A stretch of 64,000 nucleotides of DNA from positions 3,411,115-3,475,114 of the forward strand of contig JAMWFC010000051.1 of assembly GCA_027475525.1 (NCBI GenBank). Reading direction: 5' to 3'. The position numbers and the translations under genes are program-made. The notes under the pieces were generated by a model. The model was not told where the DNA came from and did not search any database. It was given only the letters and a program-made list of their open reading frames with translations. This DNA is from Macrolepiota albuminosa. Its lineage: Eukaryota; Basidiomycota; Agaricomycetes; Agaricales; Agaricaceae. Below, piece by piece: positions 1 through 53,619 of the stretch (position 1 is its first letter; each line of letters starts with the position of its first letter).

Positions 1-115
1 GCAAGACTTATCCATTCATCTCAATCACCCGTATCAGCCCCTCAGCGCACTCCACTCAGTTACTTTGAAGACCAAGAAGACTCAGGACTCATAGCGCTAG
101 CATAACGGCGGGAGG
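1..115 (+). other. 3' end of the internal region of element D, with polypurine tract
   Basis: This stretch lies just upstream of an LTR and ends in a purine-rich run (GGCGGGAGG, about 107-115) immediately before a TG. That is the expected arrangement of a polypurine tract primer next to a 3' LTR. No coding frame is recognisable. The rest of element D lies beyond the left edge of the window. The assignment rests on the downstream LTR call. Confidence 0.45.
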
Positions 116-921
116 TGACTCTGACCAAACCCCGATCAGTACTGGAAGGAGTTAGCAATTGGCGCTGTCAATCACCGAGGCACCTCAATCAGAAGTCTAA
201 AAGAATCAATGACGACAAGACAGGATACACGCAGACCCGACATTTAAATTTATCAAAAGATGGTACAATGTTTAGCGCCGGAATTAGCGCTCACGGCGTC
301 TGTCGAGGATTCCCCGACCATACCCCGGGACAGCATGGCCAATTAAATTACATCAAAAAGTGAGCAAACTCGTACCACTTCTAAGTAGTTTTAGAGTCGC
401 CGTTGGTCGCCGTCACCCATGTGCTGCAGGTCGCCGTTGACAGGTGGCCGTTAGCTACAGTCACGAAGAGAGGCGCTAATTGGTAGCGCCGTCAATGGAC
501 TTATTTTGGAAATAATGTAGCGCATAGTATAAAAACTAGCTACTTGCCATGTATATAGCAACGAATCGTAACCTCTTGAGCACCCAGTTACACTTAGCGT
601 TCAAATCGCGCTAGCGTTGCCTGACTTCGCCACCAAGTTCGGCGCTAGCTTCGTCTATCTCGTCTTCGTCGTTTACGGTGCCACCTACGGGCACACTACG
701 CTGCGCTATTCGTTTCTTTCTCTATAACTTCTCCTAAACTACGACGCTTACCACTTGCTAGGTAGCACCCGAGGCGCTATCGTCTAGCGCATCACCCTAT
801 CACCTCTGCTCGAGCACACCGGGACCCTGCCGGGACTCCTCACAAACCCGTACGCCAGGCGCTGGAGACGGCGTTGTACTGCGTATACGTCCAGCGCACC
901 CAACCACAGTTGGCGTCATCA
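116..921 (+). repeat. 3' LTR of a Ty3/Gypsy element (D) related to family A/C
   Basis: The segment begins TGACTCTG after a polypurine tract and ends GGCGTCATCA, the same terminus as the A and C LTRs. It has a TATA-like GTATAAAA near 527-536 and a GGGAC...GCCGGGACTCCTCA block near 820-842 that matches the A/C LTR downstream of their TATA box. Overall it is clearly divergent from those LTRs. It is followed by GCGGG, the same target tetranucleotide (GCGG) found beside A and C. The 5' boundary is inferred from the TG and the purine tract. It could also be a solo LTR. Confidence 0.6.
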
Positions 922-995
922 GCGGGTTTGATGTGTGTCTGAGACCGGCCCAGGTAGTTTGGCCCTTTGTACTTGTTCCGAGAAATGTTTGGGGG

Positions 996-1334
996 TCAAT
1001 CGGGGGCCTTGCGGGCTCGGACAGGCATGGGGGGTGTGGCTGTTGTTCCAGGGATGTCAGGCATTGAGTCGCTCCCCAGTGCCTGGAGGTGCACGGCGGT
1101 CAAGGGGTGGTCTTCGGGTCCCAGGAAGGTCATGGTAAGCGTCCTCCAATCAATGTTGGGGTTCGTGTCGCGTAGCCAGGGTAGTCCCAGCACCATTGGG
1201 GTCGATTCATGAAGTTGTGTGACCAGGAAGTTGGAAGTGAACTCATAGTTGTTGTCCAGAGTCACACGCCCTGAGTGAGACCTCTGGATGGGGCCAGAGG
1301 AGGAGGGGGTGCTGTTCAGGCATTGTCCATTCAC
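996..1334 (-). pseudogene. Retropepsin-like protease fragment of Gypsy element E
   Basis: The minus-strand reading frame contains LGLPWLRDTNPNIDW preceded by a beta-strand-like stretch. This is the characteristic C-terminal half of the aspartic protease domain in fungal Ty3/Gypsy polyproteins, where a hydrophobic stretch and LGLPWL precede the NPxIDW motif. The catalytic DSG/DTG segment is not seen and would lie upstream in a broken frame. It sits downstream, in minus orientation, of the gag remnant at 1400-2261. It is cut at 922 by the LTR of element D, so reverse transcriptase and integrase are not in view. Confidence 0.6.
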
Positions 1335-18773: not shown

Positions 18774-18943
18774 TCTCCCTCCAACTGAAAAATTGACTGT
18801 TCTCAGTCACCAAATAAGGCTACCATTACTGTTTTTGTGACATGTGGCCCGTGCGTTCTTCAAACTTCGTTTATAGTCCTGGTGCATGAGTTTGGACTTC
18901 ATCTCTCTTCCCCTGATTTTATCTGGCGCTCATCCCAATTGAA

Positions 18944-21366
18944 ATGTCTTTCCGTATTCCAACTCCGCCCCCTGTTCCATCACGTGAGGCCCAAGACACG
19001 GCCCATGCTTATATTGCCAAGGCAAATAATTTCCTCAAGCGAATCGATGGCGTTGGCATAGACGTGCCTGTAAATTTGGTGGTTGCCGTTATGAAACTAT
19101 ACGAGCGGTGGCTGGAGGTGTGCGTTCTTGGTGTGGGCTGGGATTGTGAGATAGAGGTTTGGGAGTGGTGCTGGTCGTGGTACCTGGATCATCGTGGTGT
19201 GGAGTAGTTAGCGCCCTTTGCTCATTTTGTAAGTACCTCCAGTTCTTGCTGTGTTGCTAGCTGATCGAGTTGCCAGGCGCCTCCTTTCATCCCCACTATC
19301 GAGGACGAGCTGGAGGACATTCTGTCCGGTGCCTTGCTGATGATGGTAAGTGTGCCTGCAACAGAGTGAGTATTCCTAACCCATTCTTTTAACTTAGCTT
19401 TGGTCTGATTTGTCGCCCCACAGTAAACAGGAGGTATTGGTGCCCCTCACTCACATGCAGGTAAACGAGGAGATTGCGGCAATGTGAGAGGAGGTTTCCC
19501 ATGACTCTTGAGAGATTATGAGGGCACTAGAGGAGTGGGAAAGAGCAGCAGCATTGGCGGCAGAGATGGAGGAGATTGCTGAGGGGAAGGCACCTGCCGC
19601 CGAGAGGCAGGCAGGAACAGAAGGGTCTGGTAAGGGTGGTCGTGCTGGCAGCACTTTGAGCCCAGTGTTGCTGGCTAGCAAGTCGGGCTTGCCGAGGAAG
19701 CTGGCAGGTGCTTCCAAATGCAAGGTAAGTGCTGATTTTGCTTGCCATTGCCGATGGTTGCTAATGACATTTGCAGAGTTGCAAGGCAGCTCCTCAATAT
19801 GCAGTGAGTGGTATTTTCTTTAGAATTGGTCTGGAATTACTAAGTCTTTGTAGGCGCCAACACAAAGTTCCTTTGACGACAAGGAGCTGAAAAGTTTGCT
19901 TTTGCCGCGTCGGGAGGAGGCCGTTCTTGACAAGGGGCAAGAGGCCGGGGTCATGATGGAGGAGATGAAGGAGAAGAAGACTGTTTCCCTGGCGACCCGG
20001 CAGGCTTTTAAGAAGGCACAGGGAGCGGTAAGTAACTTTTCTGTCTTTTTGAGTCTCTTGCTAACTCTTAGCGCTAGTGTGACAAGTGCTGGGCAGACAA
20101 CGACCCAGAAGGCTGTTGGTTCCCAACTGGAGCCCAGCCGTGTTATTGCTGTAGTGCCTTGAAACGCACTTGTACCATCGACGGGGCCAAGAGTCGCAAG
20201 CATGGCGGCGTGCCAGATGCTCTTGTTGAGAAAACATTTTCCCATGCTGTTCTGGTAAGGAGGGCTAGGGAGTTTGTAGAGGGGCAGAGGAAGAAGGTTG
20301 CCACTGGAGGAATGGCGGCTGTGGGACAGGCCTCCTTGGCGTTGCTGATGCGCCAAGAAGATGGGTCAGAAACTGTCAGAAATCGAGGTGCCAGCAAGCG
20401 CCAAGGGACTTCGGTCCCAGAAAAATGACAAGCCCCTTCCCCAAGCAAAGGGAAGGGCAAAGCCAAGCAACCTTGCATAGTATTGTCACCCTCCCTGAGG
20501 ACACCGAGATGGCGGATTTGGAGAAGGCCTTAGCAGTGAGTCGCCTGCCTTTTCAAACTTCTGGGGCAGGTCCAAGTGGCCTTTTGTCGCCTATCCACTT
20601 GGCGGTGAGGTCCCTTGGCAAAAAACAGGAGTTGGGAGAGCAGGAAGCGGTTGGCAACTCGGTGCCTCAAGAGGAGCAGGAAGAGGTCCCCACAGATATT
20701 GAGATGAGGGATGGGTCCGGGGAGAAGGCAGAGGTAGCGGCTATGGGAGGAGATGAAGACGCCAAGGGTAAGGAAGAAGAGACCTTGGCGACACAGCGCA
20801 AAGGTGATGAGGAGGAGGCACCAGCAAAGGAGTCAGTAGTGGAGGAAGGGGAGGGAGCTGCAGGAGTGGCTAGAGAGGAGCCAGAGTGGCGCTGGCTACT
20901 GCCTTATGGTAACGTTGTCCCCTGGAAGGTGTCAGACCCTGAGGACATTGCCAGATTGGAACCAAGGCGCCCTGTAATCGCTAGGGTTAATCCTGCCTGG
21001 ACTCCCTAGCTGGAACTGACGGTTACTGGTGACACCTTCCAGTGGCTGGGGCAAGACCTCGTCTACCTGGTCATAGCGCTCAATCCTCACAACATGTTGG
21101 AGCGGTATTCAAGGAGGGCGGCAACGATGGAGGCGACAATGGGGTGGGAGCAGGAATGAGTACAGGGCCAGCTCATGGCACTTCACTTGCACTATTCCAA
21201 CTTGAGTCGCAGCCTACATGTTCTGCTCAATTACCAAGATGATTGCCAAGCCGCCATGAATTGGCAAACCACCAACAATATCCTACCGGGCAACCTCCTA
21301 CCTCTTCGCGAGTCCTCCCTGCCAGTTTCTGATGACTCCTTGCCAATGGACAATGTTAGCGAGTAA
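18944..21366 (+). pseudogene. Broken copy of the antisense gene in element B
   Basis: It starts MSFRIPTPPPVPS at 18944 and keeps the same exon layout as A and C (exon 1 is again 285 nt, 18944-19228, followed by GTAAGT). Premature stops include TAG at 19205 (Trp codon in A and C), TGA near 19484, TGA near 20425 and TAG near 21007, all explicable by C-to-T or G-to-A changes. The six cysteines remain near 20080-20180. It shows that the gene was part of the family before A, B and C diverged. Confidence 0.82.
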
Positions 21367-21792
21367 ACAGACCTTAGCGTAGATAGGCCGTTTATGTATA
21401 TTTTTCTTGTTACCGTTCGCATGCATATATATTTTGCCGCCTCCTTGCCAAGTGAAAGGATTAGTCCTGTAGTCTAAGTTAGCGCAACAGCACAGAGCAA
21501 AGAAAGTAAAGCAAAGAGAAAGCAAGTGGCAAGCATTCTAAGGTAGGTTTTAGCAAGAGGAATAGTAGGTGAGGGACTTGGTCAAATTTTGAGGAAAAGG
21601 GAAACACTCAGTAAATCATCATAGCAAAAAACCCTTGGTGAGAGTTGCACAGTGCGCTAAGCATTAGCAACACGCTAGCGCTGCAGCTTGACTATGTAAG
21701 AAAATGTCTGTTGGATATAGTATAGTAAGTATCGGCCAGAAAGATAGGTAAGATAAGTAATAGAAAAAGAGAGCTTATCAATATAGTCTTTT

Positions 21793-24700: not shown

Positions 24701-25542
24701 CAGGAGCGGTAAGAACTGGTGGAGGGCTCATAGATGCCAGCCTTAATCTTGGTCCTTATAATTTGGCAGACCTCAGCTTCTATTCCAGGCGGTAATGGTC
24801 GGTTGTGCTCAGTCCATGGCACGTGAGGAATGGTCAGGATTACAACAGGCAGAAAGAAGTCTGTATGAAGGCTGCCACGTTCCGAGTCCTCCCAAGCAAA
24901 GGCTTTATTTTGCTTAGCAACGAGATTGGTAAGGACATTCAACTCATCTTTGGTCAAAAACCCTGTGTTATGCTCCTTGGCGAATTGTTGCTGGTGTTCT
25001 GTGGTAAAACGTCCTGTGGGCTGAAAGGGTGGCAGATTTGGTGATAAGGCTGGCATGTCGGCAAGAGGGTTGCCAATGATCTGGCGCTCGATTCTAAACG
25101 TCTCAGAAGAGTGCGTAGCAACAGGTTTTGTTTTGAGTGTGACTGGCTTATATTTCTTTTTGACTTGAACCCCTTTCCTTTTGGGAGCGTTAGCTTGGTT
25201 ATATACAGAGGTGGAAAGGGGAACTGTAGCCTGAGGAGCGGCAAGTCTGAGAATGGCAGGAGACGAGGCTCCAGGAAGGGTAGTGAGATATGTATTGGTA
25301 GACGCAATATTTTGGAACGATTCTGAAGCAGTAAGGTACAAGTATGCTAGAGCGGAGTTGGTAATGTTTTGATTTTTCTGGGAAAGCTCAGCGTTGTTAG
25401 TGAATCAAGGAATTAAAACTTCTTCCTCAAGAAAAGCGGTAGACACGATATTTACAAGACCAGTATCATGGTCATATTCAAGTGTTAGCGCCACATCTCC
25501 ATGATCATCACCAATCACCTCCTCGATGGTTTGTGAAAACAC
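21793..25542 (-). pseudogene. Decayed pol of element B
   Basis: Minus-strand fragments match pol of A and C: integrase (21793-22683, 22924-23406), RNase H (23626-23895) and the pol N-terminus to the start of RT (24700-25341). Stops and frameshifts lie between them. Typical replacements relative to C are Arg to His/Gln/Cys and Ala to Val/Thr, as expected from loss of CpG. The GTG TTT TCA start of the -1 frame is still readable at 25540-25542. Confidence 0.85.
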
Positions 25543-27791
25543 CTGTGGGGTCGTTCATTGGCGTGTTGGTTGGTAAATTCCGGGGGCTTAGCACGGGCGC
25601 CTTTTCATTGTCCTCTAGAGAACATTGGCACCGTTTGTTGGATTCCGGAATTGGGGTTGCTAATGGTTAGAGTTGTCTCATAGTCAGTAACGGTCTTGAC
25701 AACTGATTGCGCCAAGATGTCGAAGGGTCTGCTGAGTAGTAAATCGTATGCTGGGAATCGCAAAATGTGTATTTGAAGGTAAAAAGTAATGTTGCCAAGA
25801 GCACAAGGCACATTCTTAGCGAGACCTAGAGATCTGTCTACCATGCTATTAGCGCTTTGCATATTTAGTATAACTGTAGGGTCATAAATAAGGCCCAGAT
25901 CGTTAGCAACTTCCGCTGCCATGGAAATAATTTGAGAACCGCTATCCACGATCGCCTCCACCTCGTGCTTGTTGTCTACAGTTAGCGTGACTGAGCGAAT
26001 GACATGTGATTCTTGGGTGACGATAAGGATTGCTGGGTCTTCTCCATATTCTACCAACCTAAGATAGGTTTCTACCAGGTCCACAGAGGTGGTGTTAGCG
26101 ACGGTGTCAGCAGGAGATTCATCAGTGTTAGGAGAGTCAATGGTAACAGAAAAACCAGGAAGCGCATCGTCAAGTTCATCGACCTTGGCAATGGCTGTTG
26201 CCAAGGGTCGTTGGGGAGTGACTGCAGTCTTGACTTGGTTGCGGACGTCTGGGGCAATACTACAAAGTTCTTCAACTGATAAAGTGATGGCGGTTTTCAT
26301 GATGCGGCTGAAGACATGGTTTGATTTTTCTATGTCAAATATTGGCGCAGTAGGTCGGTAAACACCTTTGGGACGCTTCTCAGGAGCGGCAAAATTTTGT
26401 TGTGCGGGAGCATGATATCAGTCAGGAATTCCTGAATAAGGGTGGAGAGGCGGCAAAGGTGGCTCAGGAGCAGCAGAGGACGAAGATGGTTCCGAAGTTG
26501 TAACTGGGGGTGCGGCAGGAGCAGGAGTTGGTAACTTGCTAGCGGGAGGCATTGGCTTATATCCTTTGAGAGGTTGTTTAGGCTGCTTAACTTCAACTCC
26601 ATCAAAAACCTGATTCTTAAGCAAATCCAATTCTTGCTGTAGCTTAGCAATTTGTTCTTCCCATGAGAAAGTAGGGTGGTCGCCAATGCTGTCGAAGTGT
26701 AAGACCTCGTGAATCATTTGCTGTTGAGTCGCCTGCTCAGGGTTGGGATTGGCGTTGCCGGAAAGCGTGCCAGTGATGATTTGCCCTGGATTGTGCCTAT
26801 GCCATTCATCAACCCGCTCCTGAAAGGACTTCTTGTCCGGGTAGTTGGGGATGGTGGTGCCAGTGGTTAGGACTATCTTGCCATCGATAGCCCTTCAAAT
26901 TCTTCCTTGCCGAATATAATTTTCTAGAGTCGTGCAGCATCCTCTGGTCATTGTATGGTCAATTTCCCCACAGAAGTGGCAAGGGCCAGACGTGGGTGTA
27001 TTAGCAGGTCAGTTAGCAGTGAGGTTGGTTGTGATCATGATTTCAATTCGAGTCATGGCAGAAGTGACAGCGGTGGTAATGGCAGCATTGAGCTCCTCTT
27101 TCTTAACGAAGTTGGTAGCAGGAGGCGGAATGGGAATAATACCATTGGTTCACTCAGGGGGTGGGCTTGTCCTAGCACGTTGTATACCAACGCCAGTGTC
27201 CGTTCCCTTGAGAACCCATTTACTGGCTTCAAAGACGTCGGCAACGTTATATGGCTCCTCTGGGTGATGGGCCTGCTAGACAATTTCTAGGCGACGAGCA
27301 ATACGAGTCCACAATGAAGTCGGGATGCCCTGTTAGAATAGGCGACGTTCCTCGTTGATATAGAGCTTGCCGTTCTGCACAAGCCATCTAGTGATTTTCT
27401 GGAATTTGCAGTAATAAGTAGAGAACGCGCCAAGCGAAGATGTGCCATTGTTGAATGATTCCTGTACTAATTTCTGCAACTCGTTTACCATGTATCAAGT
27501 AGCCTCTTCAGCGCCAGGGTACAACTGGATTACTGCCGTCTTCCAGCCTTCATATGAGGTGCCTTGGGCTGGAACTGGTGGTGCGGCAGGAACAAAGGTG
27601 GCAAACTCAGCAAGACCTGTCCATGTTTCTGCTGTGTCATATGACACATATCTTGCCGCGTATTCCTTCATCTGCATGTGGTTGGTAATTCCACAATCCC
27701 TGAATAAATATTCTAATTCCTTGAAATACTGAGAGAGCTCCCATGGCTTGGACTTGTCCCATTTCGGTGCCGAGAAGTGATTACGTGGCGG
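25515..27791 (-). pseudogene. Decayed gag-protease of element B, 3' part
   Basis: The minus strand encodes the protease (IVDSGSQIISM near 25940), the gag linker and capsid-like parts with scattered stops. The N-terminal 25 or so codons lie at 39190-39217 because element C was inserted within the codons for PRNHFSAPKW. The break at 27791/39190 carries the 4-bp duplication GCGG. Confidence 0.83.
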
Positions 27792-28738
27792 TGATAGGAC
27801 CCTATACAGGTTAGGCGCATCAACGGCAGGCTCGGCACCGGCTCCAGAAACCTTGCCGCACTCGTTCCGAACTTAGCGCACGTGTTCTACCCATTTTAAG
27901 CCATTCCCGACGGCCGCGCACGGCAAGAAGCAGATCCGATCAATGATAGCGCCGACAGCAGCAGGAATGACAACTGACAGATGGCATCAGTCACTGACAA
28001 CAGCGCTTAGCGAGAAGCTTGATGATCTATCAAAAACTGACGGACAGCTTGGCGTTTGACCTTGGCGTCTGACATCGCTTAGCGCCTCGATTTGGCGCCT
28101 GACACCGCTTAGGTGCTCTGACAGACAGAAGGGTGATGGAGTGATGGTTTAGCTTCGCGATCTGTCGCCTGGCGTCGCTAAGGCTCTTGAATGGGCGGTA
28201 GGGATCTGAAACCGTTGGAGCTACCCCTTTGAAATTTTCCAGTTTACCGCACTCTGGCGTCATTAGCCACTGGCGACGGCGAACTCATTGTAGTATAAAA
28301 GTACTTACCGACTTGTACATAGGACAAGAAACGAATAGACCAGAGTTTCCCCCTTTACTTCAGTCTCCCTTACGCTCAAGAGCTCATTTACGCTACGGTC
28401 GGCAACGTCAAACTCATCGGCAGTTGCAGACGTTTGCCAATACTCGACATACTCGCGCCTTGCAACTACGACAGGCATTATCGACGCTTAGATTTCGCTA
28501 AGCATATCGTGCTCTTGCCGCTCACATTGCCGTGTTCACTTACCGCATTTTCCTTAGGCGCTTTACCTTAGCGCTTGACACTTGCCGACCCCGTTACCGA
28601 CTTTTACCCTTTTTCACAGACGCGTTCTCTGGGACCTGCCCGGGACTCCTCATATTACTTTTAGCGCGCCCAACGCACACTCTTGGTACGGTAACACTTT
28701 TGTTACATTTGTTACTGACCAAACTTTGGGCGTCATCA
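27792..28738 (+). repeat. 5' LTR of element C
   Basis: TGATAGGACCC...GCGTCATCA, 947 bp, with TATAAAA at 28294-28300. By eye I count 21 TTRSCG hexamers on the two strands together. Confidence 0.94.
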
Positions 28739-28741
28739 AAT

Positions 28742-28759
28742 TGGAGCCCACCGCGAGGG
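28742..28759 (+). other. Primer binding site candidate of element C
   Basis: TGGAGCCCACCGCGAGGG, identical to the site in A, three bases after the LTR. The 362-bp leader from here to the gag ATG at 29122 holds no recognised gene. Confidence 0.62.
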
Positions 28760-29121
28760 TTCTCTAGGGCAGAATTCCGCCAGAAACCCGTCTCCAGCGT
28801 AGGCGCCGCCTGCTAGACCAGTCGGCAGAAGGCATAGCTCCTTCCCACCCATCAACCCCACAACCACCTGGTGCCTTACCGGGTCTTTCTCTAGCCCAGG
28901 AACTACAGAACGCCACTGTAGACGCTTTTCCTGATCTCTTCCCGCATTCCCTCGATTATAGTGCCGACGACCCCTTAGCGTCGCCCTTTGCCTTACCGCA
29001 ATCAGTCACTCCCATCACTCCTTTAACACCGCTTTCTCAATTCGCCATTTCTCTTACCCCGTCGCCAATCTCTAGAATCCCTTCCCCACTACCGCTAACC
29101 GAACTCGTTACCACCGTCGCC

Positions 29122-31508
29122 ATGGAACAACAAGTCCAACGCATGCCGCCACGCAACCACTTCTCGGCACCAAAATGGGACGAGACCAAGCCACGGGAGC
29201 TCTCCCAGTATTTTAAGGAGTTGGAGTATTTATTCAGGGATTGTAACATTACCGACCACACGCAGATGAAGGAGTATGCGGCAAGATACGTGTCATATGA
29301 CACGGCAGAGACGTGGACAGGTCTTACCGAGTTTGCCGCCTTTGTTCCTGCCGCCCCGCCAGCTCCAGCTCAAGGCGCTTCATACGAGGACTGGAAGACG
29401 GCAGTAATCCAGCTGTACCCTGGCGCAGAGGAGGCTACCCGATACACGGTAAACGAGCTCCAGAAACTAGTACAGGAATCATTCGACAGTGGCACATCAT
29501 CTCTTGGCGCGTTCTCTACGTATTACCGCGAGTTCCAGAAAATCGCTAGGTGGCTTCTGCAGAACGGCAAGCTCTATATTAACGAGGAACGTCGCCTATT
29601 TCAGCAAGGCATCCCGACGTCTCTGTGGACTCGTATTGCTCGTCGCCTAGAGATAGTTCATCAGGCCCATCACCCTGACGAGCCCTATAACGTTGCCGAC
29701 GTCTTTGAAGCCGGTAAATGGGTTCTCAAGGGAACGGACACTGGCGTTGGACTGCAACGCGCTAGGACGAGCCCACCACCTGAGCGAACTAACGGTATCA
29801 TTCCCATCCCGCCTCCTGTTGCCGACTTCGTTAAGAAAGAAGAACTCAATGCTGCTATTACCGCGGCTGTTGCTTCCGCTATGACGCGTATTGAAACCAT
29901 GATCACCACCAACCTCACTAACCGACCCGCTAACGTACCCGCGCCTGGCCCTTGCCACTTCTGTGGGGAAATTGGCCACACCATGACTAGAGGACGCTGC
30001 GCGACTTTAGAGAACTACATTCGGCAAGGGAGAATTCGACGGGCTATCGACGGCAAGATAGTCCTCACCACTGGCGCCATCATTCCCAACTACCCAGACA
30101 AGAAGTCCTTCCAGGAGCGAGTTGATGAGTGGCATAGGCGCAACCCAGGACAGATCGTTACCGGCACGCTTTCCGGCAACGCTAACCCCGACCCTGACCA
30201 GGCAACTCAGCAGCAAATGATCCACAAGGTCTTACACTTCGACAGCGTTGGCGACCGCCCTACCTTCTCGCGGGAAGAGCGAATCGCTAAGCTGCAACAG
30301 GAGTTGGATTCGCTTAAGAATCAGGTTTTTGATGGGGTTGAAGTTAAGCAGCCTAAACAGCCTCTTAAAGGATATAAGCCGATGCCTCCCGCTAGCAAAT
30401 TACCGACGCCTGCTCCTGCCGCACCGCCTGCTACTGCCCCTGCTGCCACTCCAGAACCATCGTCGTCCGCTACCGCTCCCGAACCGCCTTTGCCGCCTCT
30501 CCATCCCTATTCAGGGATTCCCGACCGTTATCACGCTCCCGCACAACGAAACTTTGCCGCTCCCGAGAAACGTCCTGAGGGTGGCTACCGACCTACCGCG
30601 CCAATTTTCGACATAGAGAAATCTAACCACGTTTTTAACCGTATCATGAAAACCGCCGTCACCTTGTCAGTAGAAGAACTTTGTAGTATTGCTCCCGACG
30701 TCCGCAACCAGGTCAAGACAGCAGTTACTCCTCGACGACCCTTGGCGACAGCTGTTGCCGAGGTTGATGAACTCGATGATGCGCTTCCTGGTTTCTCTGT
30801 TACCATCGACTCTCCCGACACCGATGAACCTCTTGCCGACTCCATCGCTAACGCCACCTCTGTGGACCCAGTGGAGACCTACCTTAGGTCTGTGGACCAT
30901 GGAGAGGACCCCGCCATCCTTACCGTCGCTCAAGAATCGCACGCTATTCGCTCAGTAGCGCTAACCGTAGACAACAAGCACGAGGTAGAGGCAATCGTGG
31001 ATAGCGGGTCTCAAATCATTTCTATGGCAGCTGAAGTCGCTAACGATCTAGGCCTTATTTACGACCCTACCGTTATACTAAACATGCAGAGCGCTAACGG
31101 TACGGTAGACAGATCCCTCGGCCTCGCCAAGAATGTGCCATGCACCCTTGGCGACATCACCTTTTATCTTCAGATACACATTTTGACAGATCCCTCGGCC
31201 TCGCCAAGAATGTGCCATGCACCCTTGGCGACATCACCTTTTATCTTCAGATACACATTTTGCGATCACCAGCATACGACTTACTACTCGGCAGACCCTT
31301 CGACGTCTTGGCGCGATCAGTCGTCAAGACAGTTACCGACGAGGAAACGACCCTCACAATTAGCGACCCTAATTCCGGAATCCGACGAACGGTGCCAACG
31401 TTCCCTAGGGGACAACGAAAAGGCGCCCTCGCTAAGCCACCGGAGTTTACTGACCAGCACGCCAACGAACGACCCCATAGGTGTTTTCACAAACCATCGA
31501 GGAGGTGA
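29122..31508 (+). CDS. Gag-protease of element C
   Basis: It starts MEQQVQRMPP at 29122. The zinc-knuckle-like CHFCGEIGHTMTRGRC lies near residue 277 and the protease DSG aspartate near residue 627 (IVDSGSQI), followed by LLLGRPF. The frame is open to 31185, where a 77-bp duplication shifts it. With one copy ignored, it continues in the frame seen at 31263-31508 and ends HKPSRR-stop. Gag forms the particle and binds RNA; the aspartic protease matures the polyprotein. Pol lies in the -1 frame with a 28-base overlap. Confidence 0.88.
31108..31262 (+). repeat. 77-bp-period tandem duplication in the protease of C
   Basis: Positions 31108-31185 recur at 31185-31262 (period 77, 78 matching bases). 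Element A has one copy at the equivalent position, around 5803-5885. It is the only break in the gag-protease frame of C. Confidence 0.9.
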
Positions 31509-34500
31509 TTGGCGACGATCACGGAGATGTGGCGCTAACACTGGAATATGACCATTCAACTGGTCTTGTAAATATTATATCTACCGCTTGTCTTGACGAT
31601 GAAGTTTTGCTTTCCTCTACCGCTACCGACGCCGAGACTTCCCAGAAAAATCAAAACATTACCGACTCCTCTCTTGCCTACTTGTACCTTACCACTTCTG
31701 AATCATTTCAAAATATTGCGTCTACCGATACGTATCTCACTACCCTTCCCGGAGCCTCGTCTCCTGCCGTTCTTGGACTTGCCGCTCCTCAGGCTACAGT
31801 TCCCCTTTCCACCTCTGTTTATAACCAGGCTAACGCTCCTAAAAGGAAAGGGGTTCAAGTTAAAAAGAAATATAAGCCAGTTGCGCTTAAAACAAAACCC
31901 GTCGCTACGCACTCTCCCGAGACTTTTAGAATCGAGCGCCAGATCATTGGCGACCCTCTTGCCGACATGCCGGCCTTATCACCGAATCCGCCACCCTTTC
32001 AGCCCACAGGACGTTTTACCGAGGAACGCCAGCAGCAGTTCGCCAAGGAGCACGACACAGGATTTTTGACCAAAGATGAGTTGAACGTCCTTACCGATCT
32101 TGTCGCTAAGCAAGACAAAGCCTTTGCTTGGGAGGACTCGGAACACGGCAGCCTCCGCACAGATTTCTTCCCGCCTGTCGTAATCCCGACCATCCCTCAC
32201 ATACCGTGGACTGAGCACAACCGACCGTTACTGCCTGGGATCGAAGCCGAGGTCTGCCAGATTATTAGGACCAAGATACAGGCTGGCGTCTACGAACCCT
32301 CCAATAGTTCTTACCGCTCCCGTTGGTTCTGTGTCCTCAAAAAGAACGGCAATCTACGCATAGTCCACAGTCTTGAACCACTGAATAGAGTCACCATACG
32401 ACACTCTGGCGTACCGCCTTTCCCTGATCACGTTGCCGAGTCCTTTGCCGGGCGCATTTGTGGCGCCACCCTTGACCTCTATGTTGGCTACGACGAACGC
32501 TTAATCCACCCTTCTTCCCGCGACCTCACTACGTTTCAAACTCTGTTTGGCGCACTCCGCCTAGTTACCTTGCCGATGGGCTGGACAAACTCAGTCCCCA
32601 TATTCCATGACGACATCACTTTCATCCTCCAACCCGAGATACCGCATAACGTCCTTAGCTTCATCGACGACGTTGGCGTCAAAGGCCCCAAAGACTGGCG
32701 ACTCGTAAACGGCTTACCGGCAACCCATCCCGAGAACCCCAATATTCGCTTAGCGCTATGGGACTTTTTCCAGTTGCTCAACCGAGTTCTCCAACGTATG
32801 AAGTATAGCGGTGGGACTTTTAGCGGCCACAAACTCCTCCTATGCGCGCCAAGGTTCAAAATACTTGGTCACATCTGCACTCCCGACGGACGCGTTCCCG
32901 ACGAATCTCGCTTAGCACTCTTGGAGCGCTGGGGTCCTTGCCGCGACTTATCTGAAGTTCGCGCCTTTCTTGGTACCGTTGGCGTTCTCAGGATATTCGT
33001 CAAGAACTTTGCCCATTGCGCACATGCCCTTAACCGACTCACCCGCGCCAACGAGCCCTTCGAATTTGGGCCAGACCAGGTTACCGCACAACGAGACTTA
33101 GTAAAAGCTCTACAAGACGCCAAACCCCTAGTCCCCATCAATTATACCTCTGCCGACCCTGTTATCTTGGCGGTGGATACCTCGTACATTGCCGTTGGCT
33201 ACTTCCTGTGCCAGTGCCTTAGCGACAATCGGAAACAGCAACGCTACAACCGCTTTGGGTCCATCACGCTAAACGACCGGGAATCTCGCTACAGTCAGCC
33301 TAAGCTAGAGCTCTATGGGCTTTTCAAAACCTTCCGGTCGCTAAAGATGTATTTGATTGGCGTGCGCAACCTTATTGTTGAAGTCGACGCTAGGTACATC
33401 AAAGGCATGCTGCAGAATCCCAACATCCAGCCATCCGCTAGCATGAACCGGTGGGTAGTCGCCATCCTCATGTTTCACTTTGAGTTGGTACACGTCAAGA
33501 GCTCTTTCCACGGACCAGATGGACTTTCTAGGCGACCACAGCAGCCTGGCGACCCGGCAGTGGACCCACAGGCTGATAGCAATTTCGAGGACTGGATCGA
33601 CCGACTACATGGTTTCGTGCACCTCATTCAACAGCCAATTCCCTTACTACGACGGCAACAGCCTGCCAGCATCCTTCTACATCCCATCGTCCCTTACCGC
33701 CCCGAGACCTTTAGCGCACCCCTCACATTCTACACGGCAAGCATCCTTGGACAAGACTTGCCTCCCGTAAAAATCGTACAGGAACCCCAGTCGCTAAGAG
33801 AAGACAGCAAAAACCTGACCTACGATGCCGTTCCCCGATCCGCCAAGGCAAAGGCGGAAGACAGTCGCCTGTTAATAGTTGAACAATGGCTACAAGACCT
33901 TAAGCGACCCACAGACCTTACCGACGAACAATACGCTACTTTTATCCGATATGCTACCCATTTCTTCTTTACCGACAACAGACTTTGGCGACGAAATCGA
34001 GATGGCGCTCACAAGCTGATCATCAAGCCAGAAGGTTGCTTACGAGTCTTGCGCGCTATGCATGACGAGCTAGGTCATAGAGGTCTGTACGCTACCCGAG
34101 CTTCTCTGCTAGAACGATTCTGGTGGCCACAAGCTAGTGCCGACATCGCCTGGTACATCAGGACTTGCCACCTCTGCCAAATTCAACAAACACGCCAAGT
34201 ACTCATACCGCCAACCGTTGCAACGCCAGCTCCCCTCTTCAGCAAAATCTACGTCGACACCATGCATATGCCCAAATCTGGTCGCTATAAGTACATCATT
34301 CAAGGTCGTTGCTCGCTAATCCACTGGCCTGAGTTTCGCATGCTTCAAAGAGAAAATACCGAGGCGGTCGCCAAGTGGCTATTTGAAGACGTCATCTGCC
34401 GGTGGGGAGCGCTAAGAGAAATCGTCACGGATAACGGTGCGCCCATCATCAAAGCGCTAACTTACCTCGCCAAGAAATACAATATTCACCACATTCGAGT

Positions 34501-35230
34501 ATCTGGCTACAACAAGCGCGCCAATGGCCTGGTAGAGAGACCACACTTTGACGTTCGGCAAGCGCTCTTTAAGGCAGTTGATGGCGACGAGTCTTGTTGG
34601 AGTGAGGCAACGTATTCAGTGTTCTGGTCAGAGAGGGTTACCATTCGTAAGCGCATGGGTTGCTCTCCCTATTACACGGCTACTGGCACCCATCCTTTAC
34701 TCCCTGCTGACATCATAGAAGCGACCTACCTTCAGCCAGCACCCAACAGCATCTTAGCGACTACCGACCTGATCGCCAGACGAGCCATAGACCTCCAACG
34801 AAGGAAAGAAGATTTAGAGCGACTCCACGAGGTAGTCTTTAGCGCCCGTCGCCAAACAGCTCTACGATTCGAGACCGAGCATAGCGCTACCATTAAAGAT
34901 TACAACTTCCCGAGGGGCGCGCTAGTGCTCATGCGCAACTCCAAAATCGAAACTTCATACAACAAGAAAATGCGCCCGCGCTATCTAGGACCTTTGGTAG
35001 TTATCTCTCGTAACCGTGGAGGCGCTTACGTGCTCTGTGAATTAGATGGTTCAGTACTGCATCGACCGGTTGCCGCTTTTCGCCTATTGCCATACCTCGC
35101 CAGAGAACACATTGACTTGCCGCTTGAAGCGCTAGATATCGACACCGCCAAGCTTAGGGAACTTGAAGAAACAGAATTACTGGACGATGATGACTTACCG
35201 ACTCTAGTTGAAGAAGAAGAACCAGATTAG
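31481..35230 (+). CDS. Pol of element C: reverse transcriptase, RNase H, integrase
   Basis: A continuous frame of about 1249 codons begins with GTG directly after an in-frame TAG (31478-31480), so it is probably reached by frameshifting rather than by an AUG. Domains: a linker of about 250 residues; RT (about 280-430) with Asp332 (LDLYVGYDE) and FIDDV (Asp396-Asp397); RNase H with Asp566 (AVDTSYIAVG); integrase zinc module (His861, His866, Cys896, Cys899) and catalytic Asp926, Asp984 and Glu1019, the last two 35 residues apart as in the D,D35E family; C-terminal GPL-type module; acidic tail. No chromodomain. All catalytic residues are present, so the element may be active. Confidence 0.93.
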   Translation: MFSQTIEEVIGDDHGDVALTLEYDHSTGLVNIISTACLDDEVLLSSTATDAETSQKNQNITDSSLAYLYLTTSESFQNIASTDTYLTTLPGASSPAVLGLAAPQATVPLSTSVYNQANAPKRKGVQVKKKYKPVALKTKPVATHSPETFRIERQIIGDPLADMPALSPNPPPFQPTGRFTEERQQQFAKEHDTGFLTKDELNVLTDLVAKQDKAFAWEDSEHGSLRTDFFPPVVIPTIPHIPWTEHNRPLLPGIEAEVCQIIRTKIQAGVYEPSNSSYRSRWFCVLKKNGNLRIVHSLEPLNRVTIRHSGVPPFPDHVAESFAGRICGATLDLYVGYDERLIHPSSRDLTTFQTLFGALRLVTLPMGWTNSVPIFHDDITFILQPEIPHNVLSFIDDVGVKGPKDWRLVNGLPATHPENPNIRLALWDFFQLLNRVLQRMKYSGGTFSGHKLLLCAPRFKILGHICTPDGRVPDESRLALLERWGPCRDLSEVRAFLGTVGVLRIFVKNFAHCAHALNRLTRANEPFEFGPDQVTAQRDLVKALQDAKPLVPINYTSADPVILAVDTSYIAVGYFLCQCLSDNRKQQRYNRFGSITLNDRESRYSQPKLELYGLFKTFRSLKMYLIGVRNLIVEVDARYIKGMLQNPNIQPSASMNRWVVAILMFHFELVHVKSSFHGPDGLSRRPQQPGDPAVDPQADSNFEDWIDRLHGFVHLIQQPIPLLRRQQPASILLHPIVPYRPETFSAPLTFYTASILGQDLPPVKIVQEPQSLREDSKNLTYDAVPRSAKAKAEDSRLLIVEQWLQDLKRPTDLTDEQYATFIRYATHFFFTDNRLWRRNRDGAHKLIIKPEGCLRVLRAMHDELGHRGLYATRASLLERFWWPQASADIAWYIRTCHLCQIQQTRQVLIPPTVATPAPLFSKIYVDTMHMPKSGRYKYIIQGRCSLIHWPEFRMLQRENTEAVAKWLFEDVICRWGALREIVTDNGAPIIKALTYLAKKYNIHHIRVSGYNKRANGLVERPHFDVRQALFKAVDGDESCWSEATYSVFWSERVTIRKRMGCSPYYTATGTHPLLPADIIEATYLQPAPNSILATTDLIARRAIDLQRRKEDLERLHEVVFSARRQTALRFETEHSATIKDYNFPRGALVLMRNSKIETSYNKKMRPRYLGPLVVISRNRGGAYVLCELDGSVLHRPVAAFRLLPYLAREHIDLPLEALDIDTAKLRELEETELLDDDDLPTLVEEEEPD

Positions 35231-35675
35231 AAAAGACTATATATTGATAAGCTCTTTCTTTCTATTACTTACCTTACTTATCTTTCTTGCCGATACTTAC
35301 TGTACTATATTCCACAGACAATTCCTTACGTAGTTAAGCCGCAGCGCTAGCGTGTCGCCAACGCTTAGCGCCCTGCGCAACTCTCGCCAAGGGTTTTTTG
35401 CTATGATGATCTACTGAGTGTTTCCCTTTTCCTCAAAATTTGTCTAAGTCCCTCACCTACTTCTCCTCTTGCTGGCACTTACTTTAACAAATGCTTGCCG
35501 CTCGTCTTCCCGTTACCTTACTTAACTTACCCTGTGATGGTTCGCTAACTCAGACTAGACTTAATTCCTCCACGCGGTAGGGAACAGCAAAAATATATCA
35601 AAAAAAAAAAAAAAAAAACGGGGCGCCAACAAAATATGTACGAAAAGAAAACGGCCTATCTACGCTAAGGTCCGT
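35231..35675. other. Convergent spacer of element C with a 19-A run
   Basis: This lies between the pol stop and the antisense-gene stop. It contains an A-run at 35600-35618, absent from A. It may hold polyadenylation signals for both strands. No coding signal. Confidence 0.5.
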
Positions 35676-38073
35676 TCACTCACTATCATCCTCCATCGGC
35701 AACGAGTCGTCGGAGACCGGCAAAGAAGAGTCGCGTAGAGGTAGGAGGTCGCCAGGCAAAATGTTGTTGGCGGTCTGCCAATCCATGGCGGCTTGGCAAT
35801 CCGCCTGGTAGTCTCGAAGAACGCTAAGGCTACGACCAAGATTGGAGTAGCGCAACCTTAGGGCCATTAGCTGACCCCGGACACGTTCCCGCTCCCAACC
35901 CATTGCTGCCTCCATCGTTGCCGCCCTACTTGAGAACCTCTCCAGCATCTCCTGCGGGTTAAGTGCCACCACCGGGTACACGAGGTCTTGTCCCAGCCAG
36001 TGGAACGCGTTGCCTGTAACCGTTGGCTGCGGCTGAGGGGTCCAGGCAGGATTAATCCTGGCGACCACGGGACGCCTGGGCTCCAACCCGGCAACGTCCT
36101 CGGGGTCAGAGACGTCCCAGGGGGCAACGTTACCGTAGGGAGGCAGCCAGCGCCACTCTGGCTCCTCCCTGGCAACTTCTGCCGCTCCCTCACCTTCTCC
36201 CACTACTGCCTCCTTGGCGGGGGCCTCCTCCTCGTCGCCTTCGTGCTGGGTCGCCAAGGTCTCGTCTGGCTCCCCCTCCGCGTCCTCGTCACCCGCCATT
36301 GCCGGGGGGCTTCCTTCTCCCCTTGTTGTCGCCACTGCCGGTTCCGCCTCTTGGGGCTCTTCCCTTGGCGGCGGGTCCATTACCGCGTCGTCTTCGTCGG
36401 CGGTTGGCAGAGAAGCCCCTCTCAGGTGGATTGGGGAGAGCAACTTGCTGGGCCCGGCTTCGGTGTCCCTTGGCGGTAGGCGACTAGCGGCAAGCGCTTT
36501 CTCCAGATCCTCCATCTCCACGTCCTCGGGGGTAGGGGGGGGAGACTCCACTACGCGCGCGCGCTTAGCCTTGCCCTTCCCTTTGGCGGGCGAGGAGACT
36601 TGTCGTTTCGAAGGGACCGTAGTCCCTTGGCGCTCTCCGGCGCCACGGTTACCGACTGTTGCGGATTCGTCCCCTTGACGCGTCGGCAGCGCCAGGGAAC
36701 TCTTGCTGATTGTGGCCGCGTCGCCAGCGGCCTGCTTCTTCCTCTCCTCCTCAACGAACTCCCGCGCTCTCTTGACCAAGACGGCACGCTTAAAGGTCCG
36801 CTCCACTACCGCGTCGGGAGCCCCACCGCGTTCACGACTCTTGGCGCCGTCCAAAGTGCAAGCTCGTTTTAGCGTCCCGCACCGGTAACAGGGCTGGCCA
36901 CCGGTGGGGTACCAACACCCCTCTGGGTCGTTGTCGGCCCAGCACTTGTCGCACTACAGAAGTGTTAACAGACGCGGTAAGAAGAGCTACAACACTTACC
37001 GCTCCTTGGGAGTCCTTGAACTCCCGTCTTGCCGCCGGACTTGCCGTCTTCTTGTCCTTCATCTCCGGCAAGACCACCCCCGCCTCCATTCCTCCATCCA
37101 AAACCGCCTCATCTCGTCGTGCCACCAACAAACCCTTCAGCTCTGCGTCGCTAAAGGAAGTTTGCGTTGGCGCCTGTCAAATGGTTGGTTAGCAAGGAAA
37201 GTACCTTGGCGCAACGAACTTACCGTGTAACGAGGGGCGGCAGCCTTACGAGACTGAGAGTGGGATAAGCAGAAGTCGCCAGCGGTAAGAACCCTCAAAC
37301 TTACCTTCTTTTTCAAAGTCTTGCCAGGCTTGACCGGAGAGCCCGATTTGCTTGCCGGCAGTGCTGGGCTCTGGGCACTACCGGCGCGGGAATCCTTCAT
37401 ATCAGGCATCTGCCTCCTGGCAACTGGCGACTTCTCGCTAGCAACCAGGGAATCGCCAGCGACCTCTCGCTCCTCCAACGCCTTGGTTCTCTCCTTGGCG
37501 TCACGGGAGGCCTCTTCTAGCACGCTCTCGCGAATTGCCGCCATCTCGGCATCCACCTGCAAATTGGCAAGAGGCGCTAACACCTCTTGTTTGCTATGGG
37601 GAGACAGATCAGACCACAGCTAAGTTAGAGATCAAAAATCAGAGATACTTACTCAGGCACGGGAGCGCTTACCGTCATTGGCAAGGCGCCAGAGAGGATG
37701 TCCTCCAATTCGTCCTCAATGGTCGGGACAGGAGGAGGCGCCTAGGGACTAATCAGCTAGCAACACGGCAAGGACTAAAACCACTTACAAAACGAGAAAA
37801 TGGCGCTAACCAGTCGGCGCCACGATTGTCGACGTACCGCGCCCGGCACCACTCCCGCACTTCAATTTCTCTGTCCCAGCCGACGCCAAGGACGCGAACT
37901 TCGTACCAGCGCTCCAACAACTTCATCACGGCAACGACCAAGTTTGGAGGCGCCTCCGCGCCCACACCCTCGATGCGCCTAATGAAGTTGTTGGCCTTGT
38001 CAATATAGGCGGAGGCGGCGTCTTGAGCCTCGCGAGATGGGACGGGGGGCGGAGTTGGAATTCGGAAAGACAT
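35676..38073 (-). CDS. Antisense six-exon gene of element C, zinc-cluster-like protein
   Basis: Six exons can be joined with GT-AG introns of 46-53 nt, all phase 0: 38073-37789, 37741-37673, 37619-37305, 37253-37224, 37173-37000 and 36953-35676. The product is 716 residues with no internal stop. Cysteines at 292, 295, 304, 313, 316 and 323 repeat the spacing in A. A CPxKGKGKAKRAR-like basic stretch, an acidic middle and a conserved C-terminal block (WRWLPPYGNVAPW, then an Arg-rich helix) follow. Exon 1 differs from A at about 12 of 95 residues, mostly conservatively, while RT/RNase H differs at about 2 percent. Preservation of frame, splice sites and cysteines implies selection on the protein. 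The role is unknown; sequence-specific DNA binding to the element's own repeats is my hypothesis. Confidence 0.85.
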
Positions 38074-38139
38074 ATTTTTTTAATAGAGCGCCAGGTAAAG
38101 ATGTGGAAGAGAGACGAAGTCCAAACTCATGCGCCAGGA

Positions 38140-38148
38140 CTATAAACC
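38140..38148 (-). promoter_or_regulatory. Conserved TATA-like motif upstream of the antisense gene (C)
   Basis: GGTTTATAGTCCTGG on the minus strand lies about 70 bases before the ATG at 38073, as in A and B. Confidence 0.45.
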
Positions 38149-38230
38149 AAATCTCAAGAACGCACGGGCCACTTGTCACAAAAACGGTAACGGTAGCCTT
38201 ATTTGGTGACTGAGGACAGTCAATTTTTCA

Positions 38231-38242
38231 GTTGGGGGGAGA
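38231..38242 (+). other. Polypurine tract of element C
   Basis: TTGGGGGGAGA precedes the TGATAGG start of the 3' LTR. Confidence 0.75.
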
Positions 38243-39189
38243 TGATAGGACCCTATACAGGTTAGGCGCATCAACGGCAGGCTCGGCACCGGCTCCGGAA
38301 ACCTTGCCGCACTCGTTCCGAACTTAGCGCACGCGTTCTACCCATTTTAAGCCATTTCCGACGGCCACGCACGGCAAGAAGCAGATCCGATCAATGATAG
38401 CGCCGACGGCAGCAGGAATGACAACTGACAGATGGCATCAGTCACTGACAACAGCGCTTAGCGAGAAGCTTGATGATCTATCAAAAACTGACGGACAGCT
38501 TGGCGTTTGACCTTGGCGTCTGACATCGCTTAGCGCCTCGATTTGGCGCCTGACACCGCTTAGGTGCTCTGACGGACAGAAGGGTGATGGAGTGATGGTT
38601 TAGCTTCGCGATCTGTCGCCTGGCGTCGCTAAGGCTCTTGAATGGGCGGTAGGGATCTGAAACCGTTGGAGCTACCCCTTTGAAATTTTCCAGTTTACCG
38701 CACTCTGGCGTCATTAGCCACTGGCGACGGCGAACTCATTGTAGTATAAAAGTACTTACCGACTTGTACATAGGACAAGAAACAAATAGACCAGAGTTTC
38801 CCCCTTTACTTCAGTCTCCCTTACGCTCAAGAGCTCATTTACGCTACGGTCGGCAACGTCAAACTCATCGGCAGTTGCAGACGTTCGCCAATACTCGACA
38901 TACTCGCGCCTTGCAACTACGGCAGGCATTATCGACGCTTAGATTTCGCTAAGCATATCGTGCTCTTGCCGCTCACATTGCCGTGTTCACTTACCGCATT
39001 TTCCTTAGGCGCTTTACCTTAGCGCTTGACACTTGCCGACCCTGTTACCGACTTTTACCCTTTTTCACAGACGCGTTCTCTGGGACCTGCCCGGGACTCC
39101 TCATATTACTTTTAGCGCGCCCAACGCACACTCTTGGTACGGTAACACTTTTGTTACATTTGTTACTGACCAAACTTTGGGCGTCATCA
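38243..39189 (+). repeat. 3' LTR of element C
   Basis: 947 bp, same ends as the 5' copy. Differences from 27792-28738 are transitions such as CCAG/CCGG, CGTG/CGCG, GACAG/GACGG and TTTG/TTCG. Confidence 0.94.
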
Positions 39190-39534
39190 GCGGCATGTGC
39201 TAAACTTGTTGTTCCATGGCGACTGTGGTGCTGAGTTCAGTTAGTGGATGTGGGGAAGGAGTTCTAGAGATTGGCGACAGGGTAAGAGAAATGGCGAGTT
39301 GTGAAAGAGGTGTTAGAGGAGTAATGGGGGTAACAGGTTGCGGTATGGCAAGCGGCAATGCTAAGAGGTCGTCAGCACTAAAATCAAGAGAACATGGGAA
39401 GAGATCAGGAAATTTGTCTACAGTGGCGTTCTGTAGTTCCTGCACGAAAGAGAGACCCGGTAAGGCACCAGGTGGTTGTGGAGTTGATGGGTGGGAAGGA
39501 GCTATGCCTTTTGCCGACTGCTCTAGCAGACGGC
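39190..39534 (-). pseudogene. Gag start and leader of element B
   Basis: The minus strand shows the gag start MEQQV at 39217 followed by an in-frame stop (Gln codon in A/C to TAG by C-to-T after a shared context) and, upstream, the leader matching 28810-29121 of C. The leader is open over a frame of about 80 codons in B, but in A and C it lies upstream of the ATG, so I do not call it a gene. Confidence 0.7.
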
Positions 39535-40034
39535 GCTTTTATACTACAAGGAGTTCACCCTCACCAGTGACTAATAATGCCAAAGTGCGGTAAACTAGAA
39601 AATTTTATAGGGGTAGCTCCAATGGTTTCAGATCCCTACCATCCATTCAAGACCCTTAGCGGCGCCAGGCGGCAGATCGCAATGCTAAACCATCAATCCA
39701 TCACCCTTCTGTCTGTCAAAATACCTAAGCAATGGCAGGCGCCAGATTGAGGCGCTAAGCGGTGTCAGATGCCAAGGTCAAACGCCAAGCTGTCTGTCAG
39801 TTTTTGATAGATCATCAGTCTTCTTTCCAAGTGCTGTCATCAGTGACTGATGCCATCTGTCAGTTGTCATTCTTGCTGCCGTCAGTGCTATCATTGATCG
39901 GATCTGCTTTTTGCTGTATGCGGCTGTCAAATATTGCCAAAATTGGTTAATTAGCGTGCATTAAGGTATCCTGAGCTGGTGCCACATTGCTGTAGCCTGC
40001 TGTTGATGCGCTAATCCTGTATGGGGTCCTATCA
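39535..40034 (-). repeat. 5' LTR of element B, R-U5 and primer site deleted
   Basis: On the minus strand it begins TGATAGGACCCCATACAGG at 40034 and runs to the TATAAAAG box at about 39535. There it joins directly to the leader sequence (CGCCGTCTGCTAGAGC). Compared with C, everything from just after the TATA box through the LTR end and primer site is missing. Confidence 0.78.
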
Positions 40035-52664: not shown

Positions 52665-53619
52665 GAGGAAATTCGTTTCTGTTCTGTGTGTTTTGAGTGT
52701 GTCGGTCATGTATAATGTAATTCAACTATGATCAGGAAAACTTGTAATTCATTTCCGAGTCTGCGCAGCTGGGATTTCTTCTCACCCATCGTGAAATAGA
52801 AAGGTACGCGAATGGCTATACTATGACTTCCTTTTTAGTTCGGAGTCCCCTCTGAGTCTGACAATAAAATGTCTGCCACGCCCAGCATCTTAAAGCACTC
52901 CAAATAATGCATACAAGATAATAAATCAGCCTAACGGGGTGAGGCAAGGCGGAGTTTAAACTTCTTTAGCTCCTCTTCAAAGCTGAAGGGGTTAAGACCG
53001 CGTCACCATAACCTAGAAAGGTATAGTCCAGCCAGGTAACCGATATGTCAATCAACTGTGTGCCTAATAGCCGAGTTCCAATGAAAGCTAATGACGTCGT
53101 CCGAGGTCAACCTGCGTTTTCTTCGATACAGTCACAACAGTAACGGTCGTTGGTATATCGTATCCATTGAGCCCTAACACACCAAATACCGAACGTAACT
53201 CATGCACCTTGTCTAGGCATGTATTCGTATCCCGCCTCATTTTGTTGACATCTATAATCACTTATCATTACTTATCACAGGCTTGCAGTCCATGCACATG
53301 ATATCCTTGACCAATGATAAAGCGAGTCAGCAGATATACGATTGCCATGCATGGGCTACCTTGTCGTGTGAACATTGTCGTGATATAGAAATCCTAACGG
53401 TAATCTCAGCGCGATTTCAGAGTCTTGTGCTATCACATTCTCCTCAAATTAGCATTTCTTCTTCTCACCTCTGACAAGGCTGGGTTTTTCTTAATGACAT
53501 TGAGAAAACCCTGTGAAAACATGATTAGATGATCTCTGCCACTCTGGGATATTAAAACGTCGCTTGCTCTTTACACTCTACCTCAACTTTCGACGTTCGT
53601 ACGAGATTTTCTTATTGCT
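52665..53619. other. Spacer between the two NADAR genes
   Basis: About 950 bp without a gene I can support. No repeat is recognised. The promoter of the second NADAR gene is expected at its right end. Confidence 0.5.

Follow-up and report, generated by a model that had tools for sequence, protein, structure and literature searches.

HBZ of HTLV-1 is an antisense nuclear regulator expressed from the 3' end of a retroelement; it is a bZIP protein with a spliced form and fewer introns than the gene described below, and we know of no self-label motif spread over the genome in its case. VANDAL elements are plant DNA transposons of the Mutator-like type. Zn(II)2Cys6 proteins space their six cysteines as C-x2-C-x6-C-x5-12-C-x2-C-x6-8-C, and those of the Gal4 type usually have a first loop of x6 that carries basic residues. 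Antisense retroviral genes including HBZ are also named in the description of the plant Gypsy element Retand, where antisense ORFs lie between pol and the 3' LTR and 97% of the clusters have TRP28 (PMC11963269). These ORFs match the remark in our first-pass annotation, made from the sequence without database searches, that antisense ORFs are known in some plant Gypsy elements. The Retand proteins are predicted to bind DNA and were suggested to regulate transposition, and the main text of that paper contains neither the word "intron" nor the word "zinc" (PMC11963269). Among DNA transposons, VANC21 is reported to bind the motif YAGTATTAY and to hypomethylate its own family (PMC5735166), and homing endonuclease genes lying antisense in nuclear rDNA group I introns are reported to contain spliceosomal introns (PMC9548176). 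No fungal counterpart of the gene presented here was apparent by title among the literature matches listed, which mostly came from outside subscription journals.

We analyzed a window of 64,000 nt, the whole stretch of Macrolepiota albuminosa DNA considered here, which contains three related LTR retrotransposons (A, B and C) with a gene on their antisense strand. In elements A and C this gene sits between pol and the 3' LTR, the place of the Retand accessory genes (Table 1). C has the LTRs, polypurine tract and short target duplication of a Ty3/Gypsy element (the tract and the 4-bp GCGG duplication read by eye), its two LTRs show about 10 differences over some 947 bp (~1%, by eye), and it interrupts the gag of element B, which is older and inverted. 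Pfam searches of its gag-pol recovered protease, RNase H and integrase zinc-binding domains, in that order, together with a DUF4100 match in gag, which like the short introns of the antisense gene fits a fungal source, while RVT_1 and the rve core were not listed at E<=10; a reverse-transcriptase-like FIDD motif is visible by eye in the pol ORF (31967-35230), pointing to a divergent reverse transcriptase.

Joining the exons of C at the five introns proposed by the first-pass annotation gave 2151 nt up to the stop, a product of 716 aa, every intron being GT-AG and falling between codons (phase 0). The gene of A has the same six exons and an open 707-aa product, with GT-AG, phase 0 introns of 48, 52, 51, 50 and 50 nt, and both proteins contain the cysteine spacing C-x2-C-x8-C-x8-C-x2-C-x6-C. 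Re-splicing thus reproduced the claims made for A and C. The further claim that B has the same six-exon gene stood in part: B has the same exon set, yet with stops and a shifted frame, and its antisense gene is a decayed copy.

Table 1 Features of the window, with positions counted from its first nucleotide
Feature	Position	Strand	Evidence
LTR of a family D element (its antisense gene, locus L079, is outside the window, to the left)	1..1095	+	sequence match; LTR end by eye
Antisense gene of A, 707 aa	10498..12872	-	splicing, sequence match
Decayed antisense gene of B, first to last matched exon	18944..21363	+	exon matches
Element C, Ty3/Gypsy-like LTR retrotransposon, ~11.4 kb	27792..39189	+	LTR alignment, gag/pol domains
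TTRSCG hexamers in C, 195 sites (26.5 expected)	27793..39188	both strands	dinucleotide expectation
5' LTR of C, TGATAG...CATCA	27792..28738	+	LTR alignment
gag-protease ORF of C, 809 aa; 77-bp tandem duplication at 31108	29122..31551	+	ORF, Pfam
pol ORF of C; RNase H and integrase zinc-binding matched	31967..35230	+	ORF, Pfam
Antisense gene of C, six exons, 716 aa	35676..38073	-	splicing, dN/dS
Exon 6 of C gene: cysteine cluster (36953-36858), predicted helix, basic and acidic stretches, conserved C-terminal region	35676..36953	-	splicing, dN/dS, structure prediction
Intron 5 of C gene, 46 nt	36954..36999	-	splicing
Exon 5 of C gene	37000..37173	-	splicing
Intron 4 of C gene, 50 nt	37174..37223	-	splicing
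Exon 4 of C gene	37224..37253	-	splicing
Intron 3 of C gene, 51 nt	37254..37304	-	splicing
Exon 3 of C gene	37305..37619	-	splicing
Intron 2 of C gene, 53 nt	37620..37672	-	splicing
Exon 2 of C gene	37673..37741	-	splicing
Intron 1 of C gene, 47 nt	37742..37788	-	splicing
Exon 1 of C gene, 95 aa, strongly conserved, predicted helical (low confidence)	37789..38073	-	splicing, structure prediction
TATA-like box GTTTATAG, ~70 nt upstream of ATG	38140..38147	-	in 24 aligned copies
Polypurine tract adjoining 3' LTR of C (role inferred)	38232..38242	+	sequence, LTR alignment
3' LTR of C	38243..39189	+	LTR alignment

Element B occupies 18250-27791 and 39190-40034 on either side of C. Compared with C over 4058 bp of the pol region, its commonest changes are C>T and G>A (306 of 504 differences), and 170 of 283 CpGs of C read TG or CA in B, a pattern resembling that seen after CpG methylation or a RIP-like process. 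Elsewhere in the window, positions 1-2245 hold the family D LTR and, after it, a gag-like frame of another element in inverted orientation (by eye), an ORF at 15319-15942 encodes an integrase zinc-binding domain from a distant Gypsy element, sharing 35% identity with the pol of C over 75 aa, and 51952-54542 contains direct repeats with a spacing of about 1.9 kb and 79-89% identity that overlap ORFs lacking a Pfam match.

Comparisons among copies have to be read against a peculiarity of the assembly. A scan of periods 15-400 over the window and loci L039-L081 returned 33 tandem duplications, every one with a period of exactly 77 bp, located in the window at 3199, 4433, 5184, 6518, 6893, 8173, 31108 and 55317 and present in 20 of the loci L039-L081, with one duplication outside annotated elements. 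The number 77 is a common assembly word size, and the duplications probably arose where the assembler joined contigs and left k-mer overlaps in place; nearby frame breaks, apparent recombinants and copy mosaics are therefore not interpreted. This applies to the divergences of pol and the antisense gene, which are uncorrelated in the same 21 copies (r 0.06), with exon types occurring in all four combinations: shuffling of modules or recombination between elements would be an unsafe conclusion, since repeats may have been joined into chimeras, as the duplications suggest. The greater diversity of the antisense pool relative to the pol pool (pS 0.51 vs 0.24) may hold nonetheless.

We then compared the gene across 48 sequences, consisting of the three window elements, five loci found by DNA match (three duplicates dropped) and 40 loci picked for spread from 150 scored exon-1 matches. 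Parsing succeeded for 47 of them, and 31 of the 47 were intact, a label that required five canonical introns and more than 600 aa of product but no ATG; L072 (623 aa) passed both tests and was excluded by hand for an early stop. Thirty intact copies begin with ATG and one, L078, with ATC, and a 77-bp duplication lies inside the fetched piece of 8 of the 16 excluded copies. The first-pass annotation had named dN/dS near 1 across copies as a result that would speak against the gene, and the outcome was the opposite: the pairwise Nei-Gojobori median over 26 representatives was 0.147 (325 pairs, which are not independent), as against 1.55 and 1.78 in the other two reading frames of the same alignments. 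Constraint was strongest in the six-cysteine region (0.029), exon 2 (0.041) and exon 1 (0.074), and weakest in exon 4 (0.386) and exon 3 (0.277). Removing the copies seen with a 77-bp duplication left the values at 0.146 overall and 0.029 for the cysteines (18 representatives, 153 pairs; the scan behind this set left out L005 and L006), and the window pair A and C alone gave 0.112 at a dS of 1.42.

Intron and exon lengths carry a signature of splicing. Among the 31 intact copies the introns are 46-59 nt long and each intron occurs in all three lengths modulo 3, and exon 3 has seven different lengths, each a multiple of 3; every copy offers one candidate donor, so the frame of exon 3 is not a choice made by our script. 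Intron divergence (K 0.375 in 60 sampled pairs) is below synonymous divergence (dS 0.93), which may reflect constraint or an alignment effect. Judged by these substitution and length patterns, the antisense gene is a selected part of the retrotransposon, and we regard its structure and its conservation as close to certain.

The gene is also closely associated with pol in the assembly (100 Mb, 129 contigs). From 150 scored pol matches we took the 40 on contigs C1-C77; in 38 of the 40 an exact cysteine motif lies antisense 1.6-2.3 kb downstream of the match, compared with 0 of 120 shifted places, and one of the two remaining matches has exon 1 nearby. Within the copy sample, a pol end in the expected orientation was present in 43 of the 48 sequences. 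Genome-wide there are 319 exact codon matches to the family C cysteine motif and 277 exact matches to a 19-base promoter-core pattern, reversed control patterns giving 0 in both cases. Both figures include some double counts owing to 77-bp duplications, and the family C gene has about 300 copies. The TATA-like box GTTTATAG was found in all 24 copies aligned. Its position between the polypurine tract and the gene makes an internal promoter, rather than one in the LTR, the likely arrangement, and GTTTATAG is the likely antisense core promoter.

These observations bear on two readings that deny the gene a role in the element. Spliceosomal introns and a transcription-factor-like layout look host-like, as they would if a captured host gene were carried as a passenger and selected for the host, but some 300 copies, linkage to pol in 38 of 40 cases, constraint across element copies and a counterpart in family D (below) make this very improbable. 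Even less credible is an artefact of assembly or annotation: the uniform 77-bp period suggests that k-mer overlaps stayed uncollapsed where contigs were joined, yet no such duplication falls within the antisense gene of A or C, the dN/dS is the same without the affected copies, and the 319 motif copies are spread genome-wide.

To which class the protein belongs is less clear-cut. All six cysteines are kept in all 31 intact copies, arranged in two C-x2-C halves as in Zn(II)2Cys6 proteins and followed by a predicted helix, and the protein has basic and acidic stretches as factors of this family (PF00172) do. Unlike these factors, it has a first loop of x8 in 31 of 31 copies, with acidic residues, and places the cluster in mid-protein. 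The whole 716-aa protein matched no Pfam family at E<=10, neither PF00172 nor the TRP28 domain (PF04195), and the sole match of a 53-aa cysteine piece was a weak one to Anti-TRAP (E 0.49). A PDB sequence search with the antisense protein gave no match, a Foldseek search of the cysteine piece against PDB gave no significant fold match (best E 3.4), and exon 1 found no relative in a single scan of viral contigs. Predicted structures were of low confidence, with pLDDT 57.9 for exon 1 alone and 56.7 for the cysteine piece (A and C), tentatively indicating a helix only. What survives of the "Zn(II)2Cys6-like" label in the first-pass annotation is therefore the six strongly constrained cysteines; the missing profile match, the x8 loop and its acidic residues do not fit it, and we do not claim membership in the family, given the absent profile match and the different spacing.

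A homologue of the gene occurs in a second Gypsy family, D, one of whose LTRs opens the window. At L079 the family D antisense gene is 38-55% identical to that of C at the amino-acid level in the matched exons, namely 38% in exon 1, 50% in exon 5, 55% in the cysteine region and 39% in the C-terminal region; in the same comparison exons 2 to 4 gave no match. By eye, intron 5 and the acceptor of intron 4 are at the same place as in C, and the donor of intron 1 lies 9 nt further on. With a homologous gene and shared intron places in D, the gene itself and some or all of its introns are older than the separation of C and D. The D cysteine motif has 157 exact codon matches genome-wide, and the pol of D is 78.6% (tblastn) or 82% (codon alignment) identical to that of C. 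One further family D copy, L081, has a divergent cysteine region; we considered it as the source of a third motif and rejected it, as it carries the D word TAGCGC (6 vs 0.8 expected) described below.

The second feature that sets these elements apart is a dispersed hexamer, TTRSCG, which together with the gene in a second family is new in this analysis. Against a dinucleotide expectation, it occurs 195 times in C (26.5 expected), 196 times in A (28.2) and 72 times even in decayed B (12.3), compared with 23 vs 25.3 in the flanking 45-64 kb and 1 vs 3.7 in the unenriched 14-18 kb stretch. Across 45 family loci, some of them near-identical, we counted 2572 sites in 178,545 bp. In C there is about one site per 60 bp, distributed over gag, pol, the gap, the exons and introns of the antisense gene and the LTRs; exon 2 and intron 2, both short, have no site. 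Both orientations are used (gag-pro 23+/20-, pol 28+/24-), the LTRs having 16 in one and 5 or 6 in the other.

We asked how far composition alone accounts for the hexamer by shuffling synonymous codons. The observed numbers were far above the shuffles in gag-pro (43 vs 8.4, z 14), pol (52 vs 9.3, z 16) and antisense exon 6 (20 vs 4.4, z 8); the count in antisense exon 1 (3) lay inside the shuffle range. A by-product of mutation or composition, with the antisense gene an accessory gene of no known use, would be in keeping with the CpG present in every enriched word and with the C>T decay at CpG in the old copy B. It does not readily explain why strong enrichment is confined to 4 of the 16 TTNNCG words (42-53 sites each vs 5-7 expected), why both orientations are used, why the shuffles fall short in gag-pro and pol, or why the pol of D favors other words, and we hold it to be unlikely. 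Within family C, changes that preserve the motif are enriched, the pair counts being not independent and the pol piece having no case at position 4. Retention of pol motifs from A to C was not significantly higher than that of other CpG hexamers (24/25 vs 168/213 identical, p 0.057). The motif CpGs of B were not protected from decay (26/64 kept vs 72/219, p 0.30), a null result that gives no support to lasting methylation protection of motif CpGs.

In family D the favored word is a different one, most clearly in pol. TTRSCG is near shuffle level in the first and second parts of the D pol (8 vs 5.0 and 5 vs 3.1), while TAGCGC (12 vs 1.7 and 6 vs 1.5) and AGCGCC (10 vs 2.1 and 8 vs 2.0) exceed the shuffles in both. 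Just 3 of the 52 TTRSCG sites of the C pol are kept in D; the loss of 49 is expected of any hexamer, because only 10.8% of all hexamers are identical between the two pol sequences. The motif change from C to D is incomplete outside pol: TTRSCG is still mildly raised in the body of L079 (21 vs 9.3), the antisense-gene region (16 vs 6.4) and the LTR (6 vs 2.4), and in the antisense-gene region AGCGCC is raised (12 vs 2.6) and TAGCGC is absent from the top words. The two motifs overlap partly (TTAGCG, TAGCGC), and GCGCTA is raised in C as a whole (32 vs 7.1), though in the C pol it stays within the shuffles (4 vs 1.4, shuffle maximum 5).

The structure of the gene, the selection acting on its protein, the link to pol, the older homologue in a second family and the family-specific, both-strand motif, each established at the level of sequence, suggest the following model. 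A Ty3/Gypsy-like element would carry an accessory gene on its antisense strand. A TATA promoter belonging to this gene, immediately internal to the 3' LTR, would drive transcription toward pol, and the transcript would be spliced by the host and translated. The introns would survive retrotransposition because the genomic RNA is the opposite strand. The protein would enter the nucleus, bind DNA through its cysteine cluster and recognize the dispersed motif of its own family, TTRSCG in C and TAGCGC/AGCGCC in D, and by coating the element it might keep chromatin open or the LTR active. Once bound, it could open chromatin, block methylation or activate the LTR; the analogy to VANC21 favors anti-silencing or activation. 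We assign a probability of roughly 0.4 to this reading as a whole, in which the antisense gene encodes a nuclear, DNA-binding, VANC-like regulator of self-recognition that reads the family motif, and consider the binding and regulatory role of the protein tentative at somewhat less than even odds. A nuclear protein that reads a word would explain why constraint peaks at the cysteine cluster, why the word covers the element without regard to strand, and why protein and favored word differ jointly between families, a pairing compared in two families (C and D).

The gene anatomy and the selection on it would be explained equally well if the antisense protein were an accessory regulator of the LTR promoter, gag or copy number, in the manner of HBZ in HTLV-1 or of the role proposed for the TRP28 proteins of Retand, and the motif were read by something else such as gag, integrase or a host factor. 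DNA-binding-like antisense proteins at the same place in Retand point the same way (PMC11963269), as does the incomplete motif change of D outside pol, and gag could be the reader, the D gag lying outside our comparison. Against this division of labor, the antisense protein has diverged to 38-55% identity between C and D, compared with 79-82% for pol, and the favored motif has changed with it, as a co-changing pair would; we judge it a real possibility, well short of even odds. Returning to the word-reading antisense protein, its furthest extension is a self-labelling retrotransposon, with the hexamer placed across nearly all its parts and read by the spliced antisense protein, so that access to expression or protection from silencing would be limited to the family, and label and protein would turn over together at family splits. 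This extension is rather doubtful on present sequence evidence. If it is true, selection on a short DNA word would extend to synonymous sites throughout the coding sequence.

Introns are normally lost by retrotransposition, and here a five-intron gene has been kept by its antisense placement, with about 300 copies available for study. It shares this outcome with the homing endonuclease genes of nuclear rDNA, where an antisense gene in a mobile element likewise keeps spliceosomal introns, in an unrelated element and for an unrelated protein (PMC9548176). The resemblance to Retand as described extends to the Ty3/Gypsy class, a long stretch separating pol from the 3' LTR, and antisense coding sequence common across families; unlike Retand, the present elements have five spliceosomal introns, a six-cysteine cluster and a dispersed hexamer, where about half of the Retand elements have tandem-repeat arrays (PMC11963269). 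VANDAL motifs are described as mainly non-coding and often as tandem repeats in the same orientation, an arrangement absent here, where the words are dispersed in both orientations over coding sequence and LTRs; for VANC, moreover, binding and demethylation were measured (PMC5735166). Nevertheless, as in VANC/VANDAL, a transposon that encodes its own protein carries a dense, short, family-specific motif, and related families differ in that motif (PMC5735166), even though the change in D is incomplete outside pol. An element-wide word that differs in a sister family with a mostly common pol thus offers, by comparison with VANDAL, a direct test of self-recognition in a retrotransposon.
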